6,546 nucleotides of DNA. Origin: Bacteroidales bacterium (GTDB lineage Bacteria > Bacteroidota > Bacteroidia > Bacteroidales > SM23-62). Under the pieces are notes generated by a model that was not told the origin of the DNA, searched no databases, and worked only from the letters and a program-made list of their open reading frames with translations. Below are positions 45-6,546 of this stretch, piece after piece. Each line of letters begins with the position of its first letter. Within the stretch, counting starts at the first letter, position 1. Both the position numbers and the translations under genes were made by a program. The stretch is from positions 1 to 6,546 of the forward strand of contig JADHVS010000239.1 of assembly GCA_016783865.1 (NCBI GenBank), in the 5' to 3' direction.

Positions 45-701
45 TTAGAAATATTCCTCATGCTCCTCAGCTGCCATCAGGAGTTGCTGTTGGACAAATT
101 GGGGCGGAGGTGGCCGTTCAGCGTCAAAGGTTAGCTCTAAGTGGGCGATGATCCTGTCGATGATCTTCGGCTCTTCTATAAATGAGATGATTGACATCTG
201 GCCTCCACACGAGGGGCACAACAGAGGATCAACTTCAAAGACTTTTCTTATCATCTCGGCCCAGCCCTTTGATGGAACAAATGAGACTTTATCATCAATT
301 ATTGGTGGATGGGAGCGTGAGACTCCTGCCTTGTTTATCTTTCCCCTGTGGGCATTGGCATAAACGCCGTAGTAACGAATCATCACCTGGCCCTTATCGG
401 GAATATGGGAGGTGACTCTGGCAATAAACTCCAGATAATCTATCTTCTCAAGCTCTGAACTGTCTTTACCATATTTATAGCAAACTTTACCGTCAGCCTC
501 ATCAAAGGAAAGCCGGTTGAGGGATAGGATCGGTCTTATCATGTATTTGCCGACTCTTTCCGCCTCCTGCTTACTTGTGGCCCTGACTTTGCTGTGGACA
601 TGGAAACCGGTATGTCTCCAGCGCAATATTTTCTGTATAAGTGTAAGATTGATTAGCTGCTTATGAAGAAGAAGAGAGAATACTTCCCGGGTAAAGATGA
701 T
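45..701 (-). pseudogene. IS91-family transposase, N-terminally truncated
   Basis: This is the C-terminal half of an IS91-family (IS801/IS1294-like) Y2 transposase, an HUH-type enzyme for rolling-circle transposition. Recognisable blocks in order are RWRHTGFHVHSKVRA, VGKYMIRP, DYLEFIARVTSHIPDKGQ, IRYYGVYANAHRGK, a zinc-knuckle-like LCPSCGGQM, and a C-terminus ending EEYF. The apparent start near 626 is a TTG inside the homology. The same frame continues without a stop to about 701, adding TREVFSLLLHKQLI and NLTLIQKIL, which fit the family just before the RWRHTGF block. The N-terminal zinc ribbon and the HUH (HxH) catalytic motif are absent, so the product cannot transpose. Family members are about 380-420 residues; about 218 codons remain. 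The break point coincides with the start of sulfatase homology on the other strand, so this is a recombination scar. The family call is confident; the exact boundary is good to about 15 bases. Confidence 0.85.
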
Positions 702-704
702 GCC

Positions 705-1283
705 TGCGTTGACAGAGTGATGAACCGTTTAAAAGAACTGGGCCTGGATAAAAACACAATTGTAGTAGTCTGGGGTGACCACGGCTGGAAGCTGGGTGAA
801 CACAACAGCTGGGGCAAACAGACCAACTAAAACATCGACACACGTGTTCCTCTCTTCATTCGTGATCCAAAACTCCATCGAGAAGGAGTCAAATGTCAAC
901 AGCTCGTCGAAGCCGTAGACCTATTTCCGACGCTCTGCAACCTTGCAGGAATCCCGATTCCGGAAAACATGGAGGGGATCAGCCTCAAACCCGTGTTAAG
1001 AACTCCTGGGCGGGTCTTAAAGTCGGCTGTTTTCAGCCACTATCATCAGAAACCAAGATCAACGCTCGATGGAAAGAGGTACATGGGCTACTCAATGGTG
1101 ACTTCGAAATACCACTATGTGGAGTGGTACCATTGGGATGATGGAAAAAAGGTCGCCTACGACCAGGTCGGGATGGAGTTGTATGACAACCAGGTAGACC
1201 CAGAGGAAAATATCAATATTGCCGGAAATCCAGAAAATGCTGATCTCGTTCTGAAACTCTCTAAACAGCTCAAGGCTGGATAG
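705..1283 (+). pseudogene. Iduronate-2-sulfatase-like sulfatase, C-terminal remnant with in-frame stop
   Basis: This is the C-terminal part of a type I (formylglycine) sulfatase of the iduronate-2-sulfatase-like group, enzymes that remove sulfate esters from glycans in the periplasm or outside the cell. Visible are VVVWGDHGWKLGEH (the metal-binding GDHG region), GKQTN with the conserved lysine, DTRVPLFIRDP, LVEAVDLFPTLCNLAGIPIP, and the C-terminal ELYDNQVDPEENINIAGNPE block. The N-terminal C/S-x-P-x-R motif that becomes formylglycine is missing. A TAA at 828-830 replaces the aromatic residue usual after GKxTN, and the frame continues intact to the TAG at 1281-1283. An ATG at 663 lies in the same frame, but 663-701 reads better as IS91 sequence on the opposite strand, so sulfatase homology probably begins near CVDRVMNRL. 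About 190 of the usual 470-520 codons remain. It converges on the PQQ-like gene 37 bases away with no clear terminator between them. Non-functional. Confidence 0.85.
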
Positions 1284-1320: not shown

Positions 1321-2604
1321 CTATTTCCCTTTTATAACATAGGCAAACAGTTTATCTTCATGACGCACGTATAACCGTCCACCACATACTACGGGATGAG
1401 TCCAGTGCATTCCTTCTCCTCCGCTGGGCACTTGGAAAGAACTCACAGCTTCATATTTTTCGGGTGTGGCTTTGACCAGAATCATCATTCCTCTTTCCCC
1501 CAGACAATAAAACATATCGTCAGCATAGATCAATGAGCCCATTCCACCCCGCTCTTTCCACATTTGTTTTCCGGTCTTAAAATCCAGACAGAACCAGCCT
1601 CTCTCGTTGTGACCCGAACCGTAAAGATACCCATCATGCAGAATGACTCCTCCATGGAGATTGTCCATAAGTTCCGTATGCCAGACCGTTTCCGGAATAA
1701 TCGTATTTTCCGAAGATGTGAGTTTTATCAGAGTGCTTCCTCTTCCGTAACCGCTTGAGGCGAAAACAAATCCATCGTGAAATATGGGATCAGGGCAATT
1801 ATTCGACCGCTGATTTTCATACTCTACTCTCCAGAGTAACTTTCCAGTCTTTGTGTCTACGCCATAAACACAATTAGAACTCAGGTTGATGAGCTGGCGA
1901 AAGCCCGCAAATTCTCCAATAACAGGAGAGCTGAACCCCACGGTGCCCGGTATTTCCGTATTCGCCCAAATAAGATCCCCGGACTTTTTATCAAGGCAGA
2001 TCATAAATCCTTTATTTCCCACCGGATTGCAGTACAGGCGTTCTCCCTCGATAAAAACGGACTCAGAATATCCATATTCAGGGATTTCCGCATCGAATTC
2101 CTGACGAAGCTCAAGGACCCAGATTTCGTTCCCGGTTTGACTATTCAAGGCGGCCAGTCGTCCTAAGTCACTCAAATGATAGACAATGCCGTCATTGTAT
2201 GTGGGAGTACTTCGAGAACCGGTGTAAGCCCTGGCATGCGACATGGTTGTCTGCCAGGACGTACCGTTTTGTTTCTTCCAGACTTGTTTTCCATTTAGGT
2301 CGAAGGCAAATACATACGTTTGTTTTTCTATCATGCCGGCAGTATAGAGATATCCTCCGGCAATGGACATGGAACTGTATCCTTTGCCAAGGCCCGAGAC
2401 CATCCACAGCTGTTCGGGCCCATTCTCCGGCCATTTTTTTAACAGTCCTGTTTCCTTCGACTTGTTGGTACGGTCTATGCCGTGAAAGCAGGGCCATTCG
2501 CCTTTTTCTTGCGCCAAAACCAAAATCCCTACAAAATTAAAGATAATGATACCGAAAAACAAGATAAAAATTAGACGTCTTTTTGTTTTAACGACTCCAT
2601 CCAT
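1321..2604 (-). CDS. Secreted PQQ-like beta-propeller repeat protein
   Basis: This is a complete 427-residue protein with a Sec signal: basic KTKRR at 6-10, a hydrophobic stretch at about 11-31, and likely cleavage near VLAQ. The mature part opens with WPCFHGIDRTNKSKETGLL...WPENGPEQLW, typical of periplasmic or extracellular PQQ-like/BamB-like propellers. At least five blades are marked by D-x-x-[TSN]-G-x-x-x-W repeats, near residues 101-109, 154-162, 205-213, 250-258 and 341-349. Such proteins are often found beside sulfatases and other secreted hydrolases in polymer-degrading bacteria. The fold does not prove PQQ binding or dehydrogenase activity, and no specific reaction can be assigned. 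The ATG at 2604 is supported by AGGAGAG (2611-2617) six bases upstream. No convincing sigma-70 or sigma-54 promoter was found in the 142 bases before it. The frame is intact although the flanking genes to the left are debris. Confidence 0.85.
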   Translation of the reverse strand: MDGVVKTKRRLIFILFFGIIIFNFVGILVLAQEKGEWPCFHGIDRTNKSKETGLLKKWPENGPEQLWMVSGLGKGYSSMSIAGGYLYTAGMIEKQTYVFAFDLNGKQVWKKQNGTSWQTTMSHARAYTGSRSTPTYNDGIVYHLSDLGRLAALNSQTGNEIWVLELRQEFDAEIPEYGYSESVFIEGERLYCNPVGNKGFMICLDKKSGDLIWANTEIPGTVGFSSPVIGEFAGFRQLINLSSNCVYGVDTKTGKLLWRVEYENQRSNNCPDPIFHDGFVFASSGYGRGSTLIKLTSSENTIIPETVWHTELMDNLHGGVILHDGYLYGSGHNERGWFCLDFKTGKQMWKERGGMGSLIYADDMFYCLGERGMMILVKATPEKYEAVSSFQVPSGGEGMHWTHPVVCGGRLYVRHEDKLFAYVIKGK

Positions 2605-2746: not shown

Positions 2747-3136
2747 TTACGCCTGGCCCCCAGCGCCTCCACCACAAACCTGGTCATTTCCAATGATATT
2801 CAGTTTTCCTGAGATCAGATCTTCAACTACAGGTTTAATTTCTTGACGTTCAACTTCATAGTAAACATTTATTCCAACCTGATTAAAGCCCATAAGAGGC
2901 CGCATTCCGATACCACCAACAATCAGGGCATTCACATTATTTTGAGCCAGCAGATTGACCGGTACCATGCAGCCGCCTTGGACATGCGCTTGGTTTTGTA
3001 TCGTTGAAACATTTTCAATTTTTCCATCTTTGACATCAATTATTGTAAATACATCACAGTGACCGAAATGACCTGCACGCATGCCATCCAGTCCACCTTT
3101 TTCATTAGACGGAACTGCAATTCTTCCATTTTCCAT
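2747..3136 (-). CDS. NifX/MTH1175-like (ORP-type) iron-molybdenum cofactor-binding domain protein
   Basis: This 129-residue protein is a single dinitrogenase iron-molybdenum cofactor biosynthesis domain (the NifX/NifB-C/MTH1175 family, RNase H-like fold). Supporting blocks are RIAVPSNEKGGLD at the N-terminus, AGHFGHCDVFTIIDV (22-35), QGGCMVPVNLLA (53-64), ALIVGGIGMRPL (70-81) and the Gly/Cys-rich tail QVCGGGAGGQ. Cys27, Cys56 and Cys121 and the His residues near 23-26 could hold a metal cluster. The family includes the orange protein (ORP) of Desulfovibrio, which carries a Mo-Cu-S cluster, and small proteins encoded with Mrp/NBP35 ATPases in anaerobes. No nitrogenase gene is present, so nitrogen fixation should not be inferred. 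The ATG at 3136 has AAAGGA about eight bases upstream. It follows the receiver-like gene by 32 bases and is probably co-transcribed with it. A TAAGAA/TTCTTA palindrome overlaps the stop codon, too short to call a terminator. Confidence 0.85.
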   Translation of the reverse strand: MENGRIAVPSNEKGGLDGMRAGHFGHCDVFTIIDVKDGKIENVSTIQNQAHVQGGCMVPVNLLAQNNVNALIVGGIGMRPLMGFNQVGINVYYEVERQEIKPVVEDLISGKLNIIGNDQVCGGGAGGQA

Positions 3137-3168
3137 GAGTTTTTTCCTTTTATAAAAATTGTTATTAA

Positions 3169-3555
3169 TTAGCTTAGCCGGCTGCTGCTGCTTGTCATTT
3201 GTATAATTTTATTGACTTGAAGCAAGAGTTGTTCAAGATGCCGCTTTTCAGGCTGAACAGGCAGCTGCATCATCAAGCCCAAACCCTCACTGGCTTCATG
3301 ATAGTCTTTGGACGAAAGCGAACTCACGACAGCACAATCAACCATTGGATTTAATGAAATTAGTTTTTCAGCAAATTCAAGTCCGGTCATGTCTCCTAAT
3401 GATTCGTCGGAAATTACAAGGTTAATTGTTTTATTTGCAATCATATCAAGAGCTTCATTCCCAGAGTTTGCTCGAAATATTTCAGCTTTTTCTGAATACT
3501 CAGATACTGATGAAATAAAATTTCTGTTATTACTCACTAACAATAATGTAACCAT
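3169..3555 (-). CDS. Degenerate response-regulator receiver domain protein
   Basis: This 128-residue stand-alone receiver (CheY-like) domain has no output domain. The beta1 strand is MVTLLLVSNN: the acidic Mg-binding pair normally at the end of this strand is replaced by Ser-Asn-Asn (8-10). The phosphoacceptor-like Asp50 is kept in NLVISDESLGDMTGLEF. A serine (78/79, AVVSSLS) stands in the usual Thr/Ser position. The conserved lysine of the K-P motif is replaced by valine in LMMQLPVQP (Val100). It may therefore bind a partner without classic phosphorylation, or use altered chemistry; this is inference. A TTG at 3570 would add five residues (133 total), but the ATG at 3555 starts exactly at beta1. 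Neither has a good Shine-Dalgarno sequence. It is the first gene of a two-gene operon with the NifX-like gene, so a role in controlling or assisting that protein is plausible. A strong sigma-70-type promoter lies about 55 bases upstream. Confidence 0.75.
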   Translation of the reverse strand: MVTLLLVSNNRNFISSVSEYSEKAEIFRANSGNEALDMIANKTINLVISDESLGDMTGLEFAEKLISLNPMVDCAVVSSLSSKDYHEASEGLGLMMQLPVQPEKRHLEQLLLQVNKIIQMTSSSSRLS

Positions 3556-3616
3556 ATTTATGTGAATCAATTAAAAGGTTAATCTAAACCTGTTAAATGT
3601 AAAGTGCTTGATAATT

Positions 3617-3645
3617 ATTATACATCTTAAATATAACCTTATCAA
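3617..3645 (-). promoter_or_regulatory. Sigma-70-type promoter for the receiver/NifX-like operon
   Basis: On the minus strand the -35 box TTGATA (3640-3645) and a perfect -10 box TATAAT (3617-3622) are separated by exactly 17 bases. Transcription would start near 3610 and give a leader of about 55 bases before the ATG at 3555. The -35 box overlaps the sequence ATCAACTTA that looks like the terminal repeat of the IS1-family element, while the -10 box lies outside it, so this may be a hybrid promoter formed at the insertion. Confidence 0.65.
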
Positions 3646-4689
3646 CTTATGTAATACGAGAGGTTGAGGAGGGCATTCGTATTTGATGTTCAACTTGTTG
3701 AAAGGGCGTATTCGACGGCGGCGTTATCTCTGCAAGACCTGTAAAAAGACTTTCTGTTCAACAAAGGGAACGCCATAGTACAGACTCCAAAAATCACGTT
3801 TGGATTTCGATGAAGTGGTTCAAATGACTGTTGAAGGAGTAGGGATTTCGTCAATTTCGCGGATCAAGTGCTTTTCCTGGAATACGATTGCCAGCTGGCA
3901 ATACCTTGCGTGTCAAGCTGTTGGTAAGTTTAACGATCATAAACTTAAAGGCGTTGAACTAATGGAACTTCAGGCTGATGAAATCCGAACCTTCGCAGGA
4001 ACAAAAAAGATACATATGTGGATTTTCGCTGCAATCGAAGTCGGGTCCCGACTGTGGATTTCCAAGGTTGTAGGGAACCGCAACTACCGAAATATCAAAA
4101 CACTCCTGAATAAGGTGATCAATTCTTGTAGAATTGTGAACCCATTCATTTTCACAACCGATGGTTTTGAGCCTTATTCTTGGGCTACAAAAAACCTAAT
4201 GAGATCTATCTGCTTGTATGCACAAGTCATCAAGAAACGGAGGAAGAATCGTGTCATTAAAGTAGAACGACGACTAATCATCGGAACCAAGCCAAAGATA
4301 GAGCAACTCCTATTTGAATCAGAGGATTCCTCTACTATCAACACATCATTCATAGAGTGACTTAATCTTACAATTCGACAGGGCTGTGCTTATTTGGGAC
4401 GCCGGACAGCCTGTCATTTAAGGCGTAAAGATCTGCTTGATGACAACCTTGCTCTCCAAATGTGTTATTACAATTTTGTTCGGCCGCATTCAGCCTTAAA
4501 ATTCGGGAGTGAAACCCGGACACCTGCAATGCAGGCCGGATTAGTCAAAAAACAGCTCAGTTTTCGGGAAATCTTTACTGCAGTGGAAATCCTTTTTTGG
4601 TGGGTTTTCATGTTTTTGAGAACTCGGGTCCGAGAAGAGAAGTTTACGTGAATTTCGGCTTAGTAACAACAGTTAATGAAGGAAGCACA
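3636..4689 (+). mobile_element. IS1-family insertion sequence, decayed
   Basis: The transposase remnant defines the element. Candidate terminal repeats are ATCAACTTATGTAA at 3641-3654 and, read on the minus strand, ATTAACTGTTGTTA at 4664-4677, agreeing at 10 of 14 positions. CCTT lies just outside each (3637-3640 and 4682-4685). The CAACTTA motif recalls the terminal repeats of IS1 itself. The resulting length of about 1.05 kb suits the family. Exact tips are uncertain, and no 8-9 base target duplication is visible. On the right the element cuts into a minus-strand signal-peptide gene whose remainder is not found at the left side, so an adjacent deletion or other rearrangement followed insertion. 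Confidence 0.55.
3686..4651 (+). pseudogene. IS1-family transposase, broken by two nonsense codons
   Basis: One reading frame runs from about 3668 to the TGA at 4649-4651 and matches an IS1-type DDE transposase. It shows the second half of the N-terminal zinc finger (RRRRYLCKTCKKTFCSTKGTP), a helix-turn-helix region (MTVEGVGISSISRIKCFSWNTI), the catalytic-core blocks ELQADEIRTF and FTTDGFEPYSW, then SFIE, LNLTIRQ and the C-terminal YNFVRPHSALKFG and RTPAMQAGL. The TAG at 3776-3778 sits where GTP-[aromatic]-YRL is expected, and the TGA at 4358-4360 replaces the arginine of FIER-LNLTIRQ, immediately after the likely catalytic glutamate. The first CxxC of the zinc finger is also lost (GGHSYLMFN remains). 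Three independent defects mean that no active transposase can be made. IS1's own programmed frameshift is not involved, because all parts are in one frame. Confidence 0.85.
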
Positions 4690-4702
4690 GAATTTCGGTT
4701 TA
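4650..4702 (+). repeat. Near-perfect 13-base direct repeat around the right IS end
   Basis: GAATTTCGGCTTA (4650-4662) and GAATTTCGGTTTA (4690-4702) differ at one position and are spaced 40 bases apart. The first overlaps the transposase stop codon; the second lies just outside the proposed right tip of the IS1-family element, inside the truncated signal-peptide gene. The shared GAATTTCGG has the 9-base length of an IS1 target duplication, but both copies are on the same side of the transposase and no copy is seen at the left end. Origin unknown. Confidence 0.5.
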
Positions 4703-4776
4703 TCGGTCTTGGTTTGACTGGATAAAAACGAAGTGAGTATCAAAGTGATACAAATAAAATGAATTGATTTTTTCAT
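4660..4776 (-). pseudogene. 5' fragment of a secreted-protein gene (signal peptide only), cut off by the IS
   Basis: From the ATG at 4776 the frame reads MKKSIHFICITLILTSFLSS then QTKTDKPKF, a textbook Sec signal peptide: Lys-Lys n-region, hydrophobic core at about 5-18, and Ser-Ser-Gln near the cleavage site. A strong ribosome-binding site AAGGAGG lies at 4781-4787, four bases upstream. After about Phe29 the frame enters the proposed IS1 end, reads CASFINCCY and stops (TAA 4660-4662), for 38 codons in all. The body of the gene is missing and does not reappear beyond the element. A -24/-12 promoter stands directly upstream. The parent protein is unknown; the short charged linker ending DKPK resembles the start of many periplasmic proteins, sulfatases among them, but this is not enough to identify it. 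It is divergent to the FtsX-like permease gene. Confidence 0.7.
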
Positions 4777-4803
4777 GATTCCTCCTTATATACATGATAT
4801 TAC

Positions 4804-4819
4804 CGCAATTAATATGCCA
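4804..4819 (-). promoter_or_regulatory. Sigma-54 (-24/-12) promoter reading toward the truncated signal-peptide gene
   Basis: On the minus strand the sequence is TGGCATATTAATTGCG. It matches the RpoN consensus TGGCACG-N4-TTGCW with the essential GG (4817-4818) and GC (4805-4806) exactly ten bases apart. The predicted start is near 4793, giving a leader of about 16 bases that contains the AAGGAGG ribosome-binding site. Its position immediately before a signal-peptide ORF with a strong ribosome-binding site supports it. Confidence 0.6.
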
Positions 4820-4871
4820 TTATTATCCCCTGAGATTTTCGATTTTTTATTAAAGACTAGATGTCCATTCA

Positions 4872-4898
4872 TGAACATTATATGTTCGCATCTGAACA
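4872..4898. promoter_or_regulatory. Candidate enhancer (activator) site: GAACA/TGTTC dyads
   Basis: GAACAT (4873-4878) and ATGTTC (4882-4887) form a perfect 6-base dyad with a 3-base centre. The TGTTC at 4883-4887 also pairs with GAACA at 4894-4898 across six bases, so three half-sites lie in 27 bases. The cluster is about 90 bases upstream of one predicted sigma-54 start and about 105 upstream of the other, the usual range for sites of bacterial enhancer-binding proteins. The activator itself is not encoded in the window. Confidence 0.45.
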
Positions 4899-4960
4899 GA
4901 ACTAATTATTTCTAATAGTCTACAAAAGCCCCAACAGTCAGGCCAAGAGATGTTTAGTAT

Positions 4961-4976
4961 TGGTACATAATTTGCA
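4961..4976 (+). promoter_or_regulatory. Sigma-54 (-24/-12) promoter for the FtsX-like permease gene
   Basis: TGGTACATAATTTGCA matches TGGCACG-N4-TTGCW at all but two consensus positions. GG (4962-4963) and GC (4974-4975) have the required ten-base spacing. The predicted start is near 4987, leaving a leader of about 14 bases with AAAGGA (4988-4993) before the ATG at 5001. The spacing closely mirrors that of the divergent site at 4804-4819, which strengthens both calls. Confidence 0.65.
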
Positions 4977-5000
4977 AGGCAATATCCAAAGGATAATTTT

Positions 5001-6546
5001 ATGTTAAAAAATTATATTAAAACTGGAATAAGAACTTTATTAAGACACAAAGGGTATTGCGCCCTCAATATCATGGGTTTGGCTGTGGGCCTGGCCGTTT
5101 GCATCCTGATCTTTCTTTGGGTGCAGGACGAACTGGGTTATGACCGCTTCCACACCAACGCAAACAGGATTTATCGTGTGATCGAGCATGAGGAACTTTC
5201 CAATGGGGAACTGTTGTCTTATACGCAGCAAGGACCTGAATTGGCCTCAATTTTAAAGACAAATTATCCAGAGATCCTGGAGAGTGTTCGTTTCAGAAAC
5301 ATGCGTGACCGTTTAGTGAAGTTCGGGGACCATCAATTTTATGAAAGAGGATTCGCTTTTTCCGATCCGTCGATTCTGACCATGTTCACCTTTCCTCTAA
5401 AAATGGGAGATCCAGCCTCGGCTTTGAATGATCCATCCTCGATAGTCATATCAGAAAACATGGCGAACAAGTATTTTGAAAATCAAGATCCTCTGGGAAA
5501 GGTCCTCCGCGTGGATAACCACACAAATTTTATCGTCTCAGGTGTGATGGAAAATATCCCATCTAATTCCCATCTCAAGTTCGATTTTCTTGCTAAGTTC
5601 GATAGTATAAAAAATTTCGGTCAACCCATTACGGGATGGGGATCGTTTTATATCGACACCTATGTTCTTCTTGCAAAAACAGCAGATCCTCAGAATGTCA
5701 ATCAAAAGATCAAAAACGTTATCAGTGAGCATTCTGATGGAGATCCTTTTTTCATTGATCTCCAACCTCTGACACGGATACGCCTTTTTTCTAACGCCAT
5801 CCTGACTCCCCGGGTGGATGGAGATATAAAATATGTTGTCATTTTTTCTCTGATTGCGATCTTTATTCTGCTTAATGCTTGTATTAATTTTATGAATCTG
5901 ACAACAGCTCGCTCCGGCAAAAGGGCTCGAGAAATCGGGATGCGAAAAGTCGTTGGCGCACGGCGAAAGGAATTGATTCAACAATTTTTTGGAGAATCGC
6001 TTTTGATGGCATTTATTTCCTTGCTCTTTGCTGTAGTGCTTGTGCAAGTCCTTCTTCCATTCTTTAACCAACTTTCAGGAAAAGATCTTCCTCTGATGAT
6101 TTTAGGTCGGTTACATGTGATTCTTGGTCTATTGGGAATAACTCTGACGGCTGGTATGATCTCAGGGATTTATCCAGCCCTTTTTCTGTCTTCATTTCAA
6201 CCTGTTTCTGTTTTAAAAAGTACATTTAAATCAGGACATCGCGGCAAAACATTCCGGAAGACTCTTGTTATTTTTCAATTCGTTTTGACAACAGTTCTTG
6301 TTATCGGAACAGTGGTTGTCTACCGACAGTTAAATTATCTCCGCCAACAGAACCTGGGATATGATACGGAGCAGGTGATGAGTTTCCGGCTGCCGGGAAA
6401 CCTGAGAGAAAAAATCGATCTTTTAGAAACAACTTTCGAAAGGAACACTGATGTTTTAAACACTGCGGCAGCATCTACAATACCTGGACGCAGGAGAGCT
6501 ACTCTTACCCTAAATACCTGGGAGGGGAGGGATTCTGAAGATCGGT
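5001..6546 (+). CDS. FtsX/MacB-type ABC transporter permease, 3' end outside the window
   Basis: The frame is open from the ATG at 5001 to the window edge (515 residues; family members are about 780-810). The layout is that of MacB-like permeases. A short cytoplasmic start, MLKNYIKTGIRTLLRHKGY, precedes a first membrane segment at about 21-41. The periplasmic MacB_PCD domain follows (about 45-270, with YDRFHTNANRIYRV and IVISENMANKYF). The first FtsX domain has membrane segments at about 278-300, 333-353 and 371-395, with a cytoplasmic loop TTARSGKRAREIGMRKVVGA typical of FtsX coupling loops, then GIYPALFLSSFQPVSVLK. A further membrane segment at about 421-441 begins the second half. Such duplicated permeases work with a separate LolD/MacB-type ATPase in mechanotransmission or export of lipoproteins, peptides or drugs; no ATPase gene is in view and the substrate is unknown. 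AAAGGA seven to eight bases upstream supports the start. A sigma-54 promoter sits directly upstream, so expression should depend on RpoN and an activator. Confidence 0.85.
   Translation, partial: MLKNYIKTGIRTLLRHKGYCALNIMGLAVGLAVCILIFLWVQDELGYDRFHTNANRIYRVIEHEELSNGELLSYTQQGPELASILKTNYPEILESVRFRNMRDRLVKFGDHQFYERGFAFSDPSILTMFTFPLKMGDPASALNDPSSIVISENMANKYFENQDPLGKVLRVDNHTNFIVSGVMENIPSNSHLKFDFLAKFDSIKNFGQPITGWGSFYIDTYVLLAKTADPQNVNQKIKNVISEHSDGDPFFIDLQPLTRIRLFSNAILTPRVDGDIKYVVIFSLIAIFILLNACINFMNLTTARSGKRAREIGMRKVVGARRKELIQQFFGESLLMAFISLLFAVVLVQVLLPFFNQLSGKDLPLMILGRLHVILGLLGITLTAGMISGIYPALFLSSFQPVSVLKSTFKSGHRGKTFRKTLVIFQFVLTTVLVIGTVVVYRQLNYLRQQNLGYDTEQVMSFRLPGNLREKIDLLETTFERNTDVLNTAAASTIPGRRRATLTLNTWEGRDSEDR

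Follow-up and report, generated by a model that had tools for sequence, protein, structure and literature searches.

The intergenic region at positions 4777–5000 of the window (the whole 6,546-nt stretch of DNA that was analysed) separates an FtsX/MacB-type permease gene from a short minus-strand reading frame. It raises the question of whether one enhancer serves two divergent sigma-54 promoters and, if so, which protein acts on it. The features that bear directly on this question are the following:

4961–4975, plus strand: sigma-54 −24/−12 element TGGTACATAATTTGC, TGGTAC-N5-TTGC, putative promoter of the permease gene
4805–4819, minus strand (read 4819–4805): sigma-54 −24/−12 element TGGCATATTAATTGC, TGGCAT-N5-TTGC, putative promoter of the minus-strand stub
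4862–4877, no strand: operator A, 16-bp palindrome TGTCCATTCATGAACA, 10/12 consensus positions
4883–4898, no strand: operator B, 16-bp palindrome TGTTCGCATCTGAACA, 11/12 consensus positions
5001–6546, running off the window, plus strand: FtsX/MacB-type permease gene, MacB_PCD and FtsX domains found by domain search

Two opposite-strand −24/−12 elements with exact GG-N10-GC spacing had been predicted here, and both are present, each within a TGGYAY-N5-TTGC match. The longer pattern given originally, TGGYAY-N5-TTGCW, stands up to its last position, but the W fails at the minus site, which ends in TTGCG. In 20,000 first-order Markov resamplings of 4777–5000, a strict sigma-54 site appeared on either strand 41 times and on both strands never (0/20,000). 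The plus element ends 25 nt ahead of the permease ATG at 5001, the sole start codon after an in-frame stop located inside the plus promoter; the minus ATG has its A at 4776. Ribosome-binding sites (AAGGA on the plus side, AAGGAGG on the minus side) and start codons are in place as expected for short leaders. The anticipated leader length of 14–16 bases becomes ~14 nt on the plus side and 17–18 nt on the minus side, assuming transcription to start ~12 nt past the −12 GC, which puts the predicted starts near 4986–4987 (plus) and 4793–4794 (minus).

The cluster of GAACA/TGTTC half-sites described between the promoters, at enhancer-like distance from both, is found and is more regular than described. 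It consists of two 16-bp palindromes of consensus TGTYCG-N4-CGRACA, placed 21 bp apart, start to start. Operator A begins 99 nt upstream of the plus TGG and 58 nt upstream of the minus TGG, and operator B 78 and 79 nt upstream, respectively. One palindrome copy at ≥10/12 arose in 58/20,000 resamplings and two copies in 0/20,000. The observation of divergent sigma-54 elements with central dyads is thus confirmed, and the tandem palindromes, at −58/−79 and −78/−99, are putative enhancer sites upstream of both promoters.

The permease encoded in the window is 94% identical to P0001, a 785-aa Aminicenantes ABC permease; the nearest named genome contigs, also from Aminicenantes, are at 65 and 63%. 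These matches, together with the 93.5% identity of parts of the window to a contig of the family genome G262, mark its source as a bacterium of the Candidatus Aminicenantes type. Aminicenantes are placed in Acidobacteriota. No ATPase domain was found in the window part of the gene. Unlike many close relatives, the permease has neither an N-terminal prefix nor a PadR neighbour, and the promoter may therefore have been joined directly to its gene. The idea that 4777–5000 encodes the N-terminal prefix present in many 855-aa relatives was considered and rejected, since none of its frames looks like this prefix and the promoter contains a stop.

Twelve homologous permease matches show no strict sigma-54 site in the 350 nt upstream of them, although some of the eight non-Aminicenantes matches start within genes, so that the stretch ahead of these is not promoter DNA. 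The Aminicenantes loci L007 and L015 belong to the matches lacking such a site. At L002 a sigma-54 site and operator lie farther upstream, before a PadR gene, and the L416 homologue likewise comes after a PadR gene preceded by a site and operator, with an imperfect −12. The L001 homologue follows a PadR gene, and the intergenic strict site there faces the opposite, divergent PadR-permease operon; the closest named homologue of the window permease is consequently without a strict site facing it.

Among relatives, rpoN was found in 4/4 genomes searched. Strict TGGYAY-N5-TTGCW matches outnumber those of a reversed-pattern control by 59/9 in the genome G001 and by 69/6, 63/6, 85/4, 33/2, 44/5, 43/7, 32/4 and 27/4 in eight further family genomes; sigma-54 promoters in this Aminicenantes family are real. 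FtsX/MacB-type permease genes are abundant, with 96 MacB_PCD matches in the genome G253, all on one 4.43-Mb contig. We took 53 of the 96 as N-terminal and dropped 43, nearly all of them second domains of the same frames; the lone partial matches among those dropped (at 592566, 2018997 and 2478049) have no strict site near. A same-strand strict site lies ≤150 nt upstream of 9/53 permease domains (0.07 expected under random rotation), and a strict site ≤400 nt upstream of 10/53 (0.21 expected). The association in G253 is far beyond chance, and the other 43/53 domains lack a strict site in the 400 nt ahead of them.

The sites preceding permeases also carry the operator. In G001 and G253 together, 22/144 strict sites precede permease or PadR-permease frames (partial frames at L181 and L295). 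The proposed search for sites and dyads before other FtsX-like permeases is answered positively: a palindrome of ≥10/12 lies within 250 nt of 20/22 permease-linked sites (0.35 expected), a fraction that is partly circular because the consensus had been derived by eye from sequences including the permease class. Sixty permuted half-sites matched at most 5/22 of these sites. The other strict sites of the two genomes carry a palindrome in 22/122 cases (1.6 expected). Two strict sites in G001 without an operator of ≥10/12 within 250 nt (L155, L174) have pilin-like genes downstream.

Palindrome pairs (≥10/12, within 140 nt) are spaced by 21 in 12/12 cases; a wider set includes three pairs 20 apart (L337, L338, L342). 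The distances from palindrome to −24, 49 in number, cluster near −58, −68, −79 and −91. Their helical phasing gives a Rayleigh p of 1e-8 at 10.5 bp and 2e-11 at 11 bp, with paired copies being non-independent.

The divergent layout recurs as well. At L233 in G253, a Tat-type oxidoreductase-like gene and a gene for a thioredoxin-like exported protein diverge from one operator pair, at offsets of −57/−78 and −99/−78 compared with −58/−79 and −99/−78 in the window, that is, within 1 bp; the −12 elements of L233 depart from consensus. At L398 in G262, two genes with export-like starts flank one operator pair at −68/−89 and −78/−57. An orthologue of the exact intergenic region of the window was not recovered. 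An exported family with the motif YLGQ..PG..P..FAPGI(I/V)S near its start is found under sigma-54 sites or modules at L398, L409, L162 and L294.

On the minus side, operator and promoter belong to a longer conserved unit:

4805–4911, minus strand: operator-linker-promoter module, 107 bp, recognised by DNA similarity and profile match
4820–4839, minus strand: linker block AAAATCTCAGGGGATAATAA beside the −24 element, similar in a promoter subclass of relatives

A DNA search of 38 family genomes finds positions 4805–4910, whole or in part, 70–80% identical to ten scattered places. A linker of about AAAAYCYCAGGRGATAA, adjoining the −24 element, is common to one promoter subclass that includes the minus module of the window and, outside it, L249, L260, L277, L279, L329 and L354. 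We built a profile from 20 aligned modules of relatives, with the window left out and L328 dropped from the 21 listed; its members were found by BLAST with the window minus module over collected loci. The profile matches the minus side (4805–4911) with 74.3 bits (E 4.2e-23), a score that is not independent because members were chosen by similarity to that module. The plus side (4860–4975) receives 23.0 bits (E 4.3e-7; next match, E 0.057), part of which comes from the operator common to both sides.

At E ≤0.01, and with up to 100 candidates per genome scored, the profile finds matches in at least 24/38 family genomes, including at least 22 in G253, 14 in G004, 13 in G001, 11 in G262 and 10 in G002. 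A later search covered 67 sources, namely the window and 66/417 loci, mostly known matches, so its tallies are no census. Ten of 76 rows were omitted (four duplicates, three short partials, the second L259 match and two Sphingobacterium loci), and the remaining 66 module instances were selected by score, which likewise makes them no census. An open frame starts downstream in promoter orientation at 65/66 instances. Outside the window, 22/64 instances precede a permease or PadR frame. The remaining 42 non-permease instances include 33 that pass a crude hydrophobic-start rule, suggesting export or a membrane anchor, although this rule is a non-validated predictor that misassigns L343, an ATPase. 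From this tally of 64 downstream genes, permeases and exported proteins emerge as the two main target classes. A combined operator-promoter pattern, too strict for census use, gives 18 matches in 12/396 genomes of the phylum and 0 in a reversed control. In Sphingobacterium, two permeases have weak module matches just upstream (18.6 and 19.4 bits), and the activator genes are without operator.

The original prediction suggested looking for a sigma-54 activator gene nearby; no Sigma54_activat match was obtained in the seven window ORFs scanned, the permease gene running off the window. A candidate encoded elsewhere is indicated by the operator itself. G253 and G001 together have 26 Sigma54_activat loci, including a few weak or incomplete matches. 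A palindrome of ≥11/12 lies at two of these loci, which are orthologous to each other; the other 24 loci have none at this threshold (0/24) and 8/24 at ≥10/12 over 3.5 kb. In both genomes the candidate has receiver, Sigma54_activat (AAA+) and Fis-type HTH domains (Pfam), and its gene adjoins a histidine kinase gene and diverges from a MacA-like adaptor gene. The adaptor is followed in G001 by ATPase, permease, ATPase and TolC-like genes and stands alone in G253.

Orthologues of the candidate occur in 19/38 family genomes, including G262, the nearest relative by DNA among those compared, where a piece of the gene lies at a contig end. Enough upstream DNA is available for 17/19 orthologues, and two at contig ends were left out. 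An operator lies ≤600 nt upstream in 17/17 at ≥10/12 (0.90 expected) and in 16/17 at ≥11/12 (0.12 expected), while 60 permuted half-sites reach at most 4/17. We also took 16 genomes outside the phylum, picked from permease loci in various kinds of Bacteroidota, Rhodothermia, Balneolaceae, KSB1, Ignavibacteria and Cloacimonadota. One match to the activator gene at E 1e-130 or better is found in 16/16 of them, with an operator at 9/16 at ≥10/12 (0.78 expected) and 8/16 at ≥11/12 (0.00 expected). Four of the nine operator cases are 21-bp tandems, and 7/16 outside-phylum activator genes are without operator. Chitinophaga and Olivibacter are among those with an operator at the activator gene. This orthologous NtrC-type response regulator is probably the activator of the operator-bearing promoters.

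We therefore propose, with considerable confidence, that 4777–5000 controls sigma-54 transcription in both directions from a single shared enhancer, served in trans by an NtrC-type response regulator. The regulator would be encoded elsewhere in the genome, beside a histidine kinase gene and divergently from a gene for a MacA-like adaptor. Once phosphorylated, it would most likely bind the two tandem 16-bp palindromes, assemble there and activate RNA polymerase–sigma-54 at the promoters on either side through DNA looping. The two palindromes would stand at a helically favoured distance from both promoters, with operator B at −78/−79 from each −24, and the two sides might be co-induced in response to an envelope- or export-related signal. 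The plus side would drive the permease gene, which has no ATPase partner in sight, and the minus side a gene that is cut by an insertion sequence:

4660–4776, minus strand: remnant ORF of 38 codons, a signal-peptide-like start followed by insertion-sequence read-through
3713–4688, plus strand: insertion-sequence remnant with broken transposase frames, recognised from copies in relatives, right end between 4688 and 4695

The minus-strand gene keeps ~27–29 native codons before the junction, and because the insertion sequence cuts it, only a signal-peptide stub could be made here. A natural 38-aa peptide was considered and rejected, since the insertion-sequence boundary falls within the ORF. The window copy of the insertion sequence is truncated at its left end relative to the G262 copies, the loss occurring at a common CGACGGCGG stretch. 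On its left flank, positions 1500–2616 and 2766–3722 are 93.5% identical to contig C449 of G262; the junction may stem from a deletion or from a join made in assembly. For the predicted single switch co-inducing a secreted protein and a permease, the shared operator and the two target classes thus speak in favour, but the minus gene of the window survives only as this short remnant.

The asymmetry between the two sides leaves room for a simpler reading, in which only the minus promoter works or once worked, the plus match arose by chance and transcription of the permease starts from a different promoter. The profile score of 74.3 bits on the minus side against 23.0 on the plus side agrees with it, as do the weaker plus element (TGGTAC), the 43/53 G253 permease domains lacking a strict site within 400 nt and the L001 homologue with no strict site facing it. 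We nevertheless regard it as unlikely: the plus side still reaches E 4e-7, partly via the shared operator, its site is 25 nt from the ATG with 9/53 G253 domains having one similarly close, operator B sits in phase at −78, and the two-sided offsets of L233 nearly equal those of the window. Alternatively, the palindromes might be sites for some other protein, either a repressor or another response regulator from this family, with sigma-54 activation coming from a different activator. Related Fis-type domains could share sites, binding to the palindromes is a prediction, and 22/122 non-permease strict sites also carry one. However, an autoregulated enhancer site would be expected to show just what is observed: positions stepped by helical turns upstream of −24, 21-bp tandems and, across 26 loci, ≥11/12 palindromes at a single orthologous activator gene. 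This makes the alternative distinctly unlikely.

It is very improbable that the ~105-bp module is a dispersed repeat, mobile or duplicated non-coding DNA, whose sigma-54 and dyad resemblance is inherited and not selected. Identity of 70–80% over up to ~105 bp, scattered before unrelated genes and extending to the linker between operator and −24, would fit such a repeat. It fits poorly with an open frame downstream in promoter orientation at 65/66 instances, with an operator distance that shifts in helical steps as the operator and −24/−12 stay, and with the retention of the operator before one activator gene in genomes beyond the phylum. The bidirectional control region with a shared enhancer thus remains our preferred interpretation.

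In its architecture this control region resembles the ZraPSR system of enterobacteria, where two divergent sigma-54 promoters share central ZraR activator sites and one side encodes a periplasmic protein. The activator genes of ZraPSR belong to the divergent pair, whereas the window ORFs scanned include no activator gene and the targets are dispersed. Given the ZraR-type precedent, a shared divergent enhancer would not be new in kind.

The G001 cluster beside the candidate activator resembles the adaptor, ATPase, permease and TolC components of DarBCD and MacA-MacB-TolC exporters. Among the matches listed, however, its NCBIfam scores for DarB, DarC, DarD, MacA, MacB and TolC are below cut-offs, and its adaptor exceeds only that of the general model TIGR01730 (146.2 vs 94.9). 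G253 differs in having only the adaptor beside the activator, and the window permease differs from such exporters in having no ATPase gene beside it. P0001 scores 151.0 with the DarB model (cut-off 700) and 39.3 with MacB (cut-off 966). ADOP permeases (TIGR03434) share with the window group a duplicated permease with MacB_PCD/FtsX domains, some relatives following PadR genes, but P0001 scores 298.3 bits, below the cut-off of 622.3.

The pairing was originally thought to be unlike any described regulon. This view has to be narrowed, as a 2025 report in PLoS One (PMC12316311) describes sigma-54 promoters before FtsX-like/COG0577 permease genes as a 'previously unrecognized regulatory axis', with COG0577 reported for gamma-Proteobacteria, Opitutia and Bacteroidia. 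Its main text has no occurrence of 'acidobacter', 'uas' or 'palindrom', and operator, phasing, activator gene and shared divergent enhancer are absent from its relevant passages. Sigma-54 was earlier described as governing the bacterial exterior, with AtoC-like activators as the dominant subgroup (Francke 2011; PMC3162934); 'permease', 'ftsx', 'abc transporter' and 'acidobacteria' do not occur in the main text of that paper. Among the open-licence papers listed by the literature searches, none describes the operator or its activator in its title or the opening of its abstract. As far as these searches show, what is new is the operator, its assignment to an activator, its conservation beyond the phylum and, within the phylum, the regulon of permeases and exported proteins. 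Sigma-54 control of FtsX-like permeases, as reported in 2025, is extended to another phylum, and a mechanism is proposed.

We know of no role assigned to the numerous FtsX/MacB-type permeases. The operator, the probable activator with its histidine kinase and the target list make this role testable, beginning with the signal perceived by the kinase. A second question also opens, namely whether permeases standing alone cooperate with the ATPase and adaptor encoded in the operator-bearing exporter cluster. A wider scheme is possible, if somewhat short of probable: the regulator and TGTYCG-N4-CGRACA could constitute a sigma-54 regulon for 'envelope export' that is conserved in Aminicenantes (Acidobacteriota), Bacteroidota, Ignavibacteria and Cloacimonadota. 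In Aminicenantes the ~105-bp module would have carried it to numerous genes for FtsX permeases and exported proteins. In this scheme the linker (about AAAAYCYCAGGRGATAA) could be a third protein-binding block absent from ordinary sigma-54 promoters.

The rest of the window encodes, at 2747–3570 (minus strand), a dinitrogenase iron-molybdenum cofactor domain protein adjoining a receiver-only response regulator and, at 1321–2604 (minus strand), a PQQ beta-propeller domain protein with a hydrophobic start. A Y2-type transposase piece at 45–626 (minus strand) and a piece of a sulfatase C-terminus at 969–1283 (plus strand) complete it, and this end of the window (45–1283) looks like decayed mobile DNA.
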